Shown piece by piece: positions 21,776 to 24,534 of a stretch of DNA of 24,534 bases. The notes under the pieces were generated by a model. It did not search any database. It had not been told where the DNA came from and saw nothing but the letters and a program-made list of their open reading frames with translations. The position numbers were made by a program, and so were the translations under genes. The DNA lies in the IMG/VR virus record IMGVR_UViG_3300048908_000137, positions 1 through 24,534 of that record. One strand, 5' to 3'. Numbering within the stretch: the first letter of the stretch is position 1; the number at the start of each line of letters is the position of its first letter. The stretch is from a virus.

Positions 21776-22132
21776 ATGAACCCGTGCAACGATATGAATA
21801 GCGGTTATAAAACCAGCGTGGATTTCAGCGTTGAACGCAACCAGATACGCGATTTGTACGCGCGAGTGACTCAACTCGAAAAACTGATCCACTACCCGAA
21901 CACGTATCAGAGCGAGATGACGAAGTTAGCGAAAGACCGTTACACCGATTTAGCCGCCGCGCGGGACGCGCACAAAGCCACGGAACACCTCTACGCGCCC
22001 CTGCGCAGCGATACGCGAGCCGTGATCGACCTGGCAGCGTTCGCGCGCCGCCTGATCGACATGCAGGACCTCGGCCACGCCGTGACGGATGAGGTGCGGG
22101 AACTTGCGAAACGGGCTTTGGGGTTGAAATGA
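21776..22132 (+). CDS. Hypothetical phage protein (118 aa)
   Basis: 118 residues (starts MNPCNDMNSGYKTSVDFS). Mostly helical: IRDLYARVTQLEKLIHY, then TKLAKDRYTDLAAARDAHKA and VIDLAAFARRLIDMQDL. GAAGGGG just before the ATG serves as ribosome-binding site; the start is two bases after the helicase stop. The stop overlaps the next ATG. Coiled-coil-like helices suggest a binding protein. The family is not recognised. Confidence 0.65.
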   Translation: MNPCNDMNSGYKTSVDFSVERNQIRDLYARVTQLEKLIHYPNTYQSEMTKLAKDRYTDLAAARDAHKATEHLYAPLRSDTRAVIDLAAFARRLIDMQDLGHAVTDEVRELAKRALGLK

Positions 22133-22944
22133 AGCTGTATTCAACAACCGACATCGCGGCTTCAGTTCGCAAGGCGTACGAGACGTTCACGCATGTCGTG
22201 CTGAGTCGCGGTTACACGATCCTGAAGCCTGTCTACTTCAAGACAGAAACGATTCAGGATCTGGCGCCGCTCTACCAGTACGCCAGCTGGATACCCGCGT
22301 CAGCGCCGCAACTGAAGCGCTGGACGAACCTGGGTGGCGTGCTGATCGAACAGGACACGCACCCGGCGGACGACTTCCCGAAGACGGACGTAACGGTTAT
22401 GGTGGAAGCGCCGTACGACATGGATCGCCTGAAGAAGTGCAACTGGCGCAACAATGAGTATGGTGTGATTCCGAACCCCGTATCGTGGTCCACGCATGAG
22501 GAGTGCATAGACCTGCGCTTCCCGACTTCGGAACTGTTACGCGAGATCTGGACCGTTGCTAACGGCCAGCCGTTCACGAATTACGAACTGGCGACGGAAA
22601 CGGGCATCCCCGTCAGCCAATTGCAGTACATCAAGAATGCGCTTCACCCGGTCGAACACTGGTACATACAGAAGCGCCTGGCACCGGAGCGCGAAGAGAT
22701 GCTGCCCGCGTGGGAGTGGCTGGAGGCGGGCACCGTGCCGAAGTGGAAAATCATTGAATCCGGCCACAAAGCGATGGTTGAGGAGTTGGGTAAATTCGGG
22801 TATATCAACCTGAAACGCTACCAGCACTACCCGGCTGAAGAACCGGATTGGACGGTCGTTGACCGCAAGCGGCAACGCGCGCTTAGCGATCTGGCATCTG
22901 TTCGATCGTTAGTGGAGTCACTTCCCGACCATCTGTCATTGTGA
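22129..22944 (+). CDS. Hypothetical protein (271 aa), last gene of the right arm
   Basis: 271 residues, starting MKLYSTTDIAASVRKAYETF at an ATG overlapping the previous stop. It is a soluble mixed alpha/beta protein with several aromatic-rich parts (YQYASWIPASAPQLKRW, later EHWYIQKRLAPERE and ERPAW-like segments such as LPAWEWLEAG). No catalytic motif is recognised. It is the final gene of the plus-strand replication operon; its last 62 bp overlap the end of the convergent HTH gene on the other strand. Confidence 0.7.
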   Translation: MKLYSTTDIAASVRKAYETFTHVVLSRGYTILKPVYFKTETIQDLAPLYQYASWIPASAPQLKRWTNLGGVLIEQDTHPADDFPKTDVTVMVEAPYDMDRLKKCNWRNNEYGVIPNPVSWSTHEECIDLRFPTSELLREIWTVANGQPFTNYELATETGIPVSQLQYIKNALHPVEHWYIQKRLAPEREEMLPAWEWLEAGTVPKWKIIESGHKAMVEELGKFGYINLKRYQHYPAEEPDWTVVDRKRQRALSDLASVRSLVESLPDHLSL

Positions 22945-23416
22945 TGACGGTTTGCCGTATCTCTTTAATTCGAGGGGCGTTAGCATGATAGAGAGCATTC
23001 AGTTCCGCGAGGGCGTTCTCAGTCTCACTATTTCCCTGCCGCGTCGTCCCCCCACCAGTGAGAGCGAGCGCAGCATCCAGTTTGACTTTGGCGAGGGCGG
23101 CGCTATCACCGAACTCCATCGTTGCGAGCTTATGGACTTCATTGATCCCGTCTACCCGGAAGGCTCGCACCAGATCCGCGACCTGGTTTTCAAATTGCTC
23201 GGTACTCATGCGCGAGTACGTCGGATCTACCTTAACTGTTTCTACCGCACCCGCGAAAGCCTGGAGGGCGGCACTGCGACGGATGAAGATGTCAAGCTCG
23301 CGCGGGGTACAGTCTAGCGCGCACGCAGCCAGGAAGATGTCTCCCTTGGCTTCTGTCAGCGCGGTCTTGATTGACTGTTCGGAAATCAGGCCGCTCTTTC
23401 GCGCTCTGCTAGTCAT
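22883..23416 (-). CDS. HTH protein, candidate terminase small subunit
   Basis: 177 residues. The N-terminal ~55 residues hold a Fis/homeodomain-like helix-turn-helix (IKTALTEAKGDIFLAACALD, then TPRELDIFIRRSAAL). The middle is helical (FENQVADLVRAFRVDGINEV and AALAKVKLDAALALTGGG) and the tail is polar. This layout resembles small terminase subunits and phage DNA-binding adaptors. TerS recognises pac or cos DNA and hands it to TerL; TerL lies at 4695-6695, so the pairing would need a circular map or split genes. The ATG overlaps the stop of the basic protein (ATGA). A transcription regulator is the alternative. Confidence 0.6.
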   Translation of the reverse strand: MTSRARKSGLISEQSIKTALTEAKGDIFLAACALDCTPRELDIFIRRSAALQAFAGAVETVKVDPTYSRMSTEQFENQVADLVRAFRVDGINEVHKLATMEFGDSAALAKVKLDAALALTGGGTTRQGNSETENALAELNALYHANAPRIKEIRQTVITMTDGREVTPLTIEQMPDR

Positions 23417-23565
23417 TTCTTCGTCCGCCGTTCAGGAAGTCGTTTCAGGGATTTGCCGTGTTGCTCTTCCACGAATTTCTTGCCGACCTTGGCAGGCACC
23501 TTGGAAGACTTGCCCGCCGCTGCCGCGTGCATAAGTCGGCTTTGCGCTTTCGATTTCATAGGCAT
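23413..23565 (-). CDS. Small basic phage protein (50 aa)
   Basis: 50 residues (starts MPMKSKAQSRLMHAAAAGKS, ends KRLPERRTKK). The KSKAQxRLM...GK...VPxKVxKxFV...LPER pattern matches a widespread family of small basic phage proteins. The ATG at 23565 has GAGGT 6-8 bases upstream; a longer reading into the ligase stop is not chosen. It lies between the ATP-grasp ligase and the HTH gene. Family members have no established function; nucleic-acid or capsid binding is inferred from charge. Confidence 0.75.
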   Translation of the reverse strand: MPMKSKAQSRLMHAAAAGKSSKVPAKVGKKFVEEQHGKSLKRLPERRTKK

Positions 23566-23575
23566 GATATGACCT

Positions 23576-24534
23576 CTAGTAAGAAAGACCTGTTCCGTAT
23601 CCAAGTTTCTGAAGGTCTGGTAACTGCTTCTTTAACCGGCCGGCTCCTATGTCTGTCCTGTAAAAAGGAGAGTTCGGTATCTTTACCTTTTTTAGGGCAC
23701 TGTACGCACTGCGGCGCGCGCCAGTTATCGTTTCGCCGAGACCTGTTGCGATCAGAACATAATCCCCCGCCGTCACCGGACCCGGAAGATCCACCACCTT
23801 CCCGTTAATCTCGCGCGGCGCGTCGCCGATCATGACTTCCGAGAAGTGAAGATGCTCCATATCTTCCGCATTGTAAATCGGTATGCCGCAAAGTTCCTTG
23901 TTCGTTATTTTCGAGTAGGGAAAGTCGGGCAGCGCCATCAGGACAGAGATGGAGACTACATCGGTCTTCACCTTCAGCGTGTCTCGCCCGTTCACCAGAT
24001 CGAGCATCCATTGGGCCTGATCGCCTTCGATCAATGCGGTAAGGTTGTGGCGGATCGGCCAGCCGTCACGCATCGTCCACTCCAACGGATAGGGGGTTCC
24101 ATCGTGCGTTATCATGCAGTTCACATCAACGTAGCCGACGTACCCCACGCGCTGGAGATGATCTGTAGCCGGCTTGAGTACCTGGTCAGCCAGTTTCGAC
24201 TTCTTCACGACGCGCACAGTAGTGCCCATCTCGCCCGTATTCACGCCGAGATCGCCGTTCATCAGTTTCTTGTTCTCCCAGTTCTCAACCCATCCTGCTT
24301 TGGACCATCCAGCAGGCCCGAACCACCCGCCCACGGCCATCTCCATCCCGTCAATCTTCTCCTGGAGAATAAATCCGTCTTCTTTGGCCGATTTGACGTA
24401 TTTCGGGACTGTTTTCCAGCGCTGAAGCATGTAGACCAGATCCGCCGCCGAGTTCGCAACATAGGACATTGCCCGCTCGCCGTCACCGGACGGCTTGGAG
24501 ACAAACGCTTTACCCTGCTTTTTTACGTAGGCGA
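23576..24534 (-). CDS. PurD-like ATP-grasp ligase, N-terminus beyond window
   Basis: About 318 residues are visible, running open to the window edge, so the start lies outside; the reading frame continues upstream of the first internal Met as KAFVSKPSGDGERA. The sequence matches phosphoribosylamine-glycine ligase (PurD): ATP-binding GFILQEKIDG, GDLGVNTGEMGTTVRV (PurD: GDxGPNTGGMG), YVGYVDVNCMITHDGTPYPLEW, and a C-terminal domain ending VLIATGLGETITGARRSAYS and FYRTDIGAGRLKK (PurD: ffRxDIG). The PurD EFNxRFGDPE metal-binding motif is changed to EWTMRDGWP, so the substrate may differ. Possible roles are purine synthesis or adding an amino acid to a modified base. It is the first visible gene of the right minus operon. 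Confidence 0.8.
   Translation of the reverse strand, partial: AYVKKQGKAFVSKPSGDGERAMSYVANSAADLVYMLQRWKTVPKYVKSAKEDGFILQEKIDGMEMAVGGWFGPAGWSKAGWVENWENKKLMNGDLGVNTGEMGTTVRVVKKSKLADQVLKPATDHLQRVGYVGYVDVNCMITHDGTPYPLEWTMRDGWPIRHNLTALIEGDQAQWMLDLVNGRDTLKVKTDVVSISVLMALPDFPYSKITNKELCGIPIYNAEDMEHLHFSEVMIGDAPREINGKVVDLPGPVTAGDYVLIATGLGETITGARRSAYSALKKVKIPNSPFYRTDIGAGRLKKQLPDLQKLGYGTGLSY

Follow-up and report, generated by a model that had tools for sequence, protein, structure and literature searches.

Why would a phage carry, among its late genes and with no other purine gene nearby, a protein that resembles the purine enzyme PurD, and does that protein still do what PurD does? The question arises at the right end of the window, the 24,534-nucleotide stretch of viral DNA analysed here (IMG/VR record IMGVR_UViG_3300048908_000137), where the contig end cuts a gene whose frame stays open at its 5' end, leaving the last 318 residues. 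These match the Pfam families GARS_A (E 4.6e-7) and GARS_C (E 2.1e-8); the frame is genuine, and the PurD-type domains, the GDLGVNTGEMG loop and the EWTMRDGWP motif are there as a sequence-only reading of the locus had described them. The whole gene, encoding 450 aa, lies at L002:9605-10954 in the IMG/VR contig G001, with 318/318 residues identical to the window's fragment; at 38,970 bases with a 117-base terminal repeat, this contig is probably a complete genome. Full-length ligases measure 447-450 aa, 447 aa being the commonest length among the other copies of the soil group described below. Table 1 gives the features of the window.

Table 1. Features of the ligase gene and its downstream neighbours in the window
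Feature	Position	Strand	Remarks
PurD-like ATP-grasp ligase	23576..24534 (frame 24532..23576)	-	Residues 133-450 of 450; ORF and Pfam GARS_A/GARS_C
ATP-binding strand/loop FVSKPSGDGERAM	24467..24505	-	Invariant K145, equivalent to A. aeolicus PurD K143
E218-N-K220 (PurD D212-H-K214)	24269..24277	-	Glycine-contacting Asp replaced by Glu; Lys retained
GDLGVNTGEMG loop (PurD GDxGPNTGGMG)	24224..24256	-	GGMGA replaced by GEMGT in the clade
EWTMRDGWP (PurD ExNxR[FLM]GDP)	24056..24082	-	E283 and R287 retained; N285 to T, D290 to W, next E292 to I/L
C-terminal GARS_C domain, residues 327-429	23642..23950	-	Pfam
Short Lys-rich protein (MPMKSKAQ...)	23413..23565	-	Downstream, same strand; phrog_16759 match, unknown function
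177-aa conserved protein, cluster c7	22883..23416	-	Downstream; no family match
271-aa conserved protein, cluster c5	22129..22944	+	Convergent early-strand gene bounding the late operon

To compare active sites, 36 PurDs, 50 phage proteins and two complete cellular paralogues were tabulated residue by residue in an alignment to the Aquifex PurD 2yw2. In PurD, ATP is contacted by K103, K143, E185, E192 and K214, and glycine by D212, R287 and E292 (PMC8880213). K143, E192, K214, E283, R287 and E100 are retained in every sampled protein, one truncated phage row being without data at E100; in phage numbering the first five are K145, E196, K220, E283 and R287, present in 50/50. At other positions all 50 phage proteins depart from PurD: Q stands for E185, E for D212, T for N285, W for D290 and I or L for E292, the GGREHA loop is replaced, and K103 is R wherever there are data (one row has none). 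The PurDs are invariant (36/36) at the positions changed in the phage ligases, and all 36 carry the ExNxR[FLM]GDPE signature. We take N285 to be a metal ligand of PurD and the GGREHA loop to be its binder of phosphoribosylamine; the loop belongs to the N-terminal part beyond the window, which is also altered, PurD's GNGGREHAL reading DVGSNALDL in the G001 copy. Read in this way, the machinery for ATP-driven carboxylate activation looks intact, but not the sites at which PurD takes up glycine and phosphoribosylamine.

Judged by its sequence, the ligase is not PurD. Four relatives score 80-109 bits against the purD equivalog model TIGR00877, whose cut-off is 288 bits, and the PurDs of three host genomes score 568-573 bits; in full-length ligases GARS_N (PF02844) goes unmatched and GARS_A lies above its cut-off. 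The sequence-only reading had called for a PurD tree. In the maximum-likelihood tree the phage ligases and the two complete cellular paralogues, those of Halarchaeum and Roseomonas, are split from the 36 PurDs at 100/100, a division found in all bootstrap trees, and the phage ligases form one clade at 99/100; the order within the non-PurD side is unsure because the branches there are long. With the ligase outside PurD and the GGREHA loop absent, tree and motifs together exclude a host PurD captured by a prophage. An AlphaFold2 model built with 48 relatives (pLDDT 87, pTM 0.88; loop 225-232 poorly predicted) nonetheless retains the PurD fold: ranks 1-15 of a Foldseek search with it are all PurDs, and in a second look by VIA-align PurDs occupy rows 1-13 (Z 27.6-31.1), followed by PurK and PurT at Z ~23.

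The ligase thus shares with PurD (TIGR00877; PF02844 + PF01071 + PF02843) its length, domain order, fold, ATP-grasp lysines, E283, R287 and a GDxGxNTGxMG-type loop, but differs from it in the missing GGREHA loop and GARS_N match, in the replacements at D212, N285, D290 and E292, in forming a separate clade and in having no purine genes nearby. PurK, PurT, PylC and the L-amino acid ligase BacD/YwfE have the three-domain ATP-grasp fold and acyl-phosphate chemistry in common with it, yet align at Z ~21-23.5 where listed and with 9-16% identity. Other ATP-grasp proteins (R2K family, RimK-like and others) are likewise encoded by phages, but no viral structure in BFVD matched the model at TM 0.5 or above on the query. 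PHROGs v4 holds no family for the ligase, none of the PADLOC models matches it or places it in anti-phage defence, and our search of the literature on this PurD-like gene family found nothing.

The same departures from PurD occur, sparsely, in cells. A search of plasmids found proteins of Halarchaeum (29%, E 8e-41), Roseomonas (E 3e-22) and Sphingomonas (E 5e-22) that match the phage ligase better than the PurDs of the same plasmid collection do; they carry ExTxRxGxP, Glu for D212 and TGEMGT, and the GGREHA loop is absent. We therefore define an ExTxR clade by E[FW]TxRxGxP, TGE[MQ]GT, Glu for D212 and the lack of GGREHA, features found in every one of the 50 phage proteins and in both complete cellular paralogues. 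Cellular and phage proteins have E[FW]TxRxGxP, [FW]E[HN]K and TGE[MQ]GT in common, and the complete cellular pair groups with the phage proteins at 100/100; they differ in being only ~25-34% identical, in T or G rather than I/L after GxP, in Y or N for W290, and in the non-phage context of the cellular genes. Since the motif change is common to the cellular paralogues, it is not phage-specific and no phage invention. The Halarchaeum and Sphingomonas proteins are annotated as 'phosphoribosylglycinamide synthetase C domain-containing protein' and that of Roseomonas as hypothetical; the Roseomonas gene has genes for a type III polyketide synthase and an aminotransferase in its vicinity, and no relatives of its product were found in IMG/VR. 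The Sphingomonas gene (L238:11489-13136) carries a frameshift in the deposited sequence and faces a SET-domain gene in convergent orientation. A general linkage to SET domains, seen in Sphingomonas and some lake phages, was rejected, as it is absent beside the Halarchaeum and Roseomonas paralogues.

Among phages the ligase is widespread. Scans confirmed 156 relatives with the window protein as query, 393 with an alignment and 49 with the MW202796 protein, in overlapping sets; hundreds of relatives are in IMG/VR. They divide into a soil/Burkholderiaceae-type group, whose members share 76-100% identity with the window gene (63% in one uncultured relative) and which has prophages in Paraburkholderia tropica, P. 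sp. BL25I1N1 and P. phenoliruptrix, and a second group, 43-49% identical, to which the spring-water phage MW202796 belongs. In the latter phage the PurD-like frame of ~443 aa (MW202796.1 42140-43471; L098:5140-6471) is missing from the GenBank annotation. With the window's large terminase as query, every near-complete contig found carries the ligase, including two not previously listed; for the remaining ones this was established by matching contig names between scans. The ligase is likewise present in each contig bearing the c2 ejection-type gene whose sequence extends far enough downstream. One IMG/VR contig of 79,073 bases (G005) has two PurD-like gene copies and two terminase matches, and may therefore represent a joining of two related phages, or else a tandem assembly.

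Most pairs of ligase genes have dN/dS of 0.03-0.07 (maximum 0.15), a rough estimate as dS exceeds 1 in many pairs. The ligase is under strong purifying selection, and dN/dS and open frames exclude a pseudogene. The altered motif is no accident of chance: the gene has hundreds of relatives, evolves at dN/dS 0.03-0.15 and shows the changes in 50/50 phage proteins and 0/36 PurDs. When G001 is compared with G006 and G012, only a capsid-like protein is better conserved than the ligase; against MW202796, identity is 42% for the ligase and 23% for the terminase, with every other pair below threshold, a contrast that may reflect transfer between phage groups as well as constraint. The ligase is a core gene of these phages.

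A spread of the gene through bacteria outside phages was considered and rejected. A phage-type profile run over 398 Pseudomonadota genomes returned, beyond PurDs, only the known prophage, and with a broader profile every locus inspected was PurD or that prophage; among 99 genomes of the prophage host's genus, the ligase is present only in the starting genome, so that the prophage is rare. Matching 'phage' records of Salmonella, Acinetobacter, Listeria and gut samples were set aside, being canonical PurDs where inspected. The phage-labelled records OR845008, OR846666, MT838306, OQ572412 and CAKLQH020000004 hold a canonical bacterial PurD, and several of them look like bacterial contigs.

The setting of the gene is constant. 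In complete genomes a head-closure-type protein, one or two small enzymes and three ejection/internal virion-type proteins precede the ligase, and a 63-aa basic protein and a 177-aa protein follow it. Among 79 distinct loci with enough upstream sequence, the ligase comes directly after a large late gene (clusters c1/c36/c47/c52/c83) in 75, in many with a 4-base overlap. The upstream proteins, assigned as ejection-type from gene order and size and without family match, are probably injected into the host; their order resembles that of P22 gp7-gp20-gp16. BLASTP detects no similarity between the ejection-type proteins of the two phage groups. The sequence-only reading was right that the PurD homologue stands alone, without purine genes nearby, and wrong to call its neighbours packaging-type, as those upstream are mainly of the ejection/internal virion type and the large terminase lies ~17 kb away in the window contig.

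Soil-group phages count an Asp/Asn hydroxylase (PF05118) and a cupin among their small late enzymes; those of the lake group include either a GNAT or a fusion of cupin and SET domains. The Asp/Asn beta-hydroxylase-family gene at L104:4281-4841, beside a small cupin in a soil-group late operon, is unusual cargo for a virion operon. The cupin-SET fusion at L203:5050-5904 (phrog_34170, unknown function) lies in a lake-phage late operon where other lake phages have the GNAT. The 271-aa protein on the opposite strand is kept in most soil-group loci and has no match in Pfam, PHROG or PADLOC.

What, then, does the ligase join? That it is an ATP-dependent enzyme with a new substrate pair is very likely, and the corresponding proposal of the sequence-only reading is well supported by the residue table, by the tree outside PurD and by a lone gene in a constant late position; as the residues that bind glycine and the ribose amine are lost, it probably joins two other molecules. 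The reading we prefer, with a probability of roughly 0.4, is that of an ATP-dependent carboxylate-amine (or similar) ligase from a distinct PurD-derived ATP-grasp clade, a core late gene that would use a carboxylate other than glycine and a late or virion-associated protein as target. The enzyme would phosphorylate this carboxylate, held by R287 beside E218, W290 and I/L292; a nucleophile seated in the N-terminal pocket, itself altered (D10, DGS/T loop), would then accept the acyl group. Less firmly, we suggest that the acceptor belongs to a late or virion-associated protein. A protein target is proposed because the ligase is encoded with ejection-type proteins and the late stretch holds an Asp/Asn hydroxylase, GNAT and cupin-SET, which are protein-modifying types.

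Several observations speak against a protein as target. Small molecules are, to our knowledge, the substrates of the characterised PurD/PurK/PurT-group enzymes; the modifying enzymes near the ligase differ between phage groups; and since the ejection-type proteins have diverged between groups while the ligase stays above 40% identity, a ligase dedicated to them would be surprising. The same ligase type could instead make a small molecule, an amino-acid or peptide-like conjugate acting on the host late in infection, a possibility we regard as real if somewhat doubtful. It fits the nearest folds, PurD, PurK and PurT and then biotin carboxylases and PylC, all of which use small molecules or a carrier-bound cofactor, the L-amino acid ligases in the Foldseek list, the entire N-terminal substrate domain, retained and internally conserved, and the polyketide synthase and aminotransferase near the Roseomonas paralogue; yet no second biosynthetic gene is consistently linked to the ligase in phages, and a late-operon place beside virion proteins is unusual for such a gene. 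Any choice between these target classes is accordingly a guess, a protein being suggested by the late position and the protein-modifying neighbours, a small molecule by the habits of the nearest folds and by a single cellular context.

Other explanations fare less well. The sequence-only reading had offered DNA modification by ligation of an amino acid or amine, with a base or nucleotide as acceptor, to protect phage DNA against restriction. PurD's own acceptor, a ribose phosphate amine, does make a nucleotide-like acceptor chemically close, and the GS/GC left in the N-terminal loop does not speak against phosphate binding. Such DNA modification is unlikely, given that 12 relatives contain no PF00303 (thymidylate-synthase-type) gene, that the window genes searched include no other base-modification gene, that the ligase sits among late ejection-protein genes rather than replication genes, and that MW202796 has a conventional cytosine methyltransferase and an antirestriction protein. 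Palindromes of 6 bases occur at 0.68-0.75 of expectation in G001, G002 and G003, the soil phages nearest to the window, and at ~1.0 in two Burkholderiaceae prophage-type relatives, a mixed picture that is weak evidence either way. A PurD-like protein that has given up catalysis and serves the virion or its assembly structurally or by binding ATP would explain the constant place among virion genes and the loss of N285, but it is improbable with the catalytic-type E283, R287, K220 and K145 invariant in 50/50; Thr for N285 is kept in the cellular paralogues too, which suggests an active variant. The other option of the sequence-only reading, ordinary purine supply boosted by a GAR synthetase, is very improbable: the homology to PurD is full-length, and PurD is counted among viral metabolic genes in viral surveys (e.g. 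PMC12043954), but loss of the glycine and phosphoribosylamine determinants (D212, E292, N285 and the GGREHA loop) disfavours it, as do a score far under the purD equivalog cut-off, a place outside PurD in the tree and the lack of any other purine gene found nearby.

Returning to a protein-directed ligase, we tentatively propose that two very different phage groups share a late ligase of an undescribed PurD-derived clade, also present in bacteria and archaea, which would attach an acyl group other than that of glycine to a new acceptor, whether on the virion or on a late host target; such a phage-encoded ligation would have no known precedent. Automatic annotation would name the gene purD, yet its product ranks among the best-conserved proteins in an abundant group of phages and is still recognisable where the terminase is only 23% identical, although PHROGs lacks it. 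The viral purine genes recorded as 'PurD' in surveys may in part be this different ligase, from which PurD can be separated by a simple test at three positions, D212, N285 and E292 of the A. aeolicus enzyme. Once found, the substrate of the ligase would account for the cellular paralogues as well, and would reveal either a new modification of virion or late proteins or a new metabolite made by the phage.
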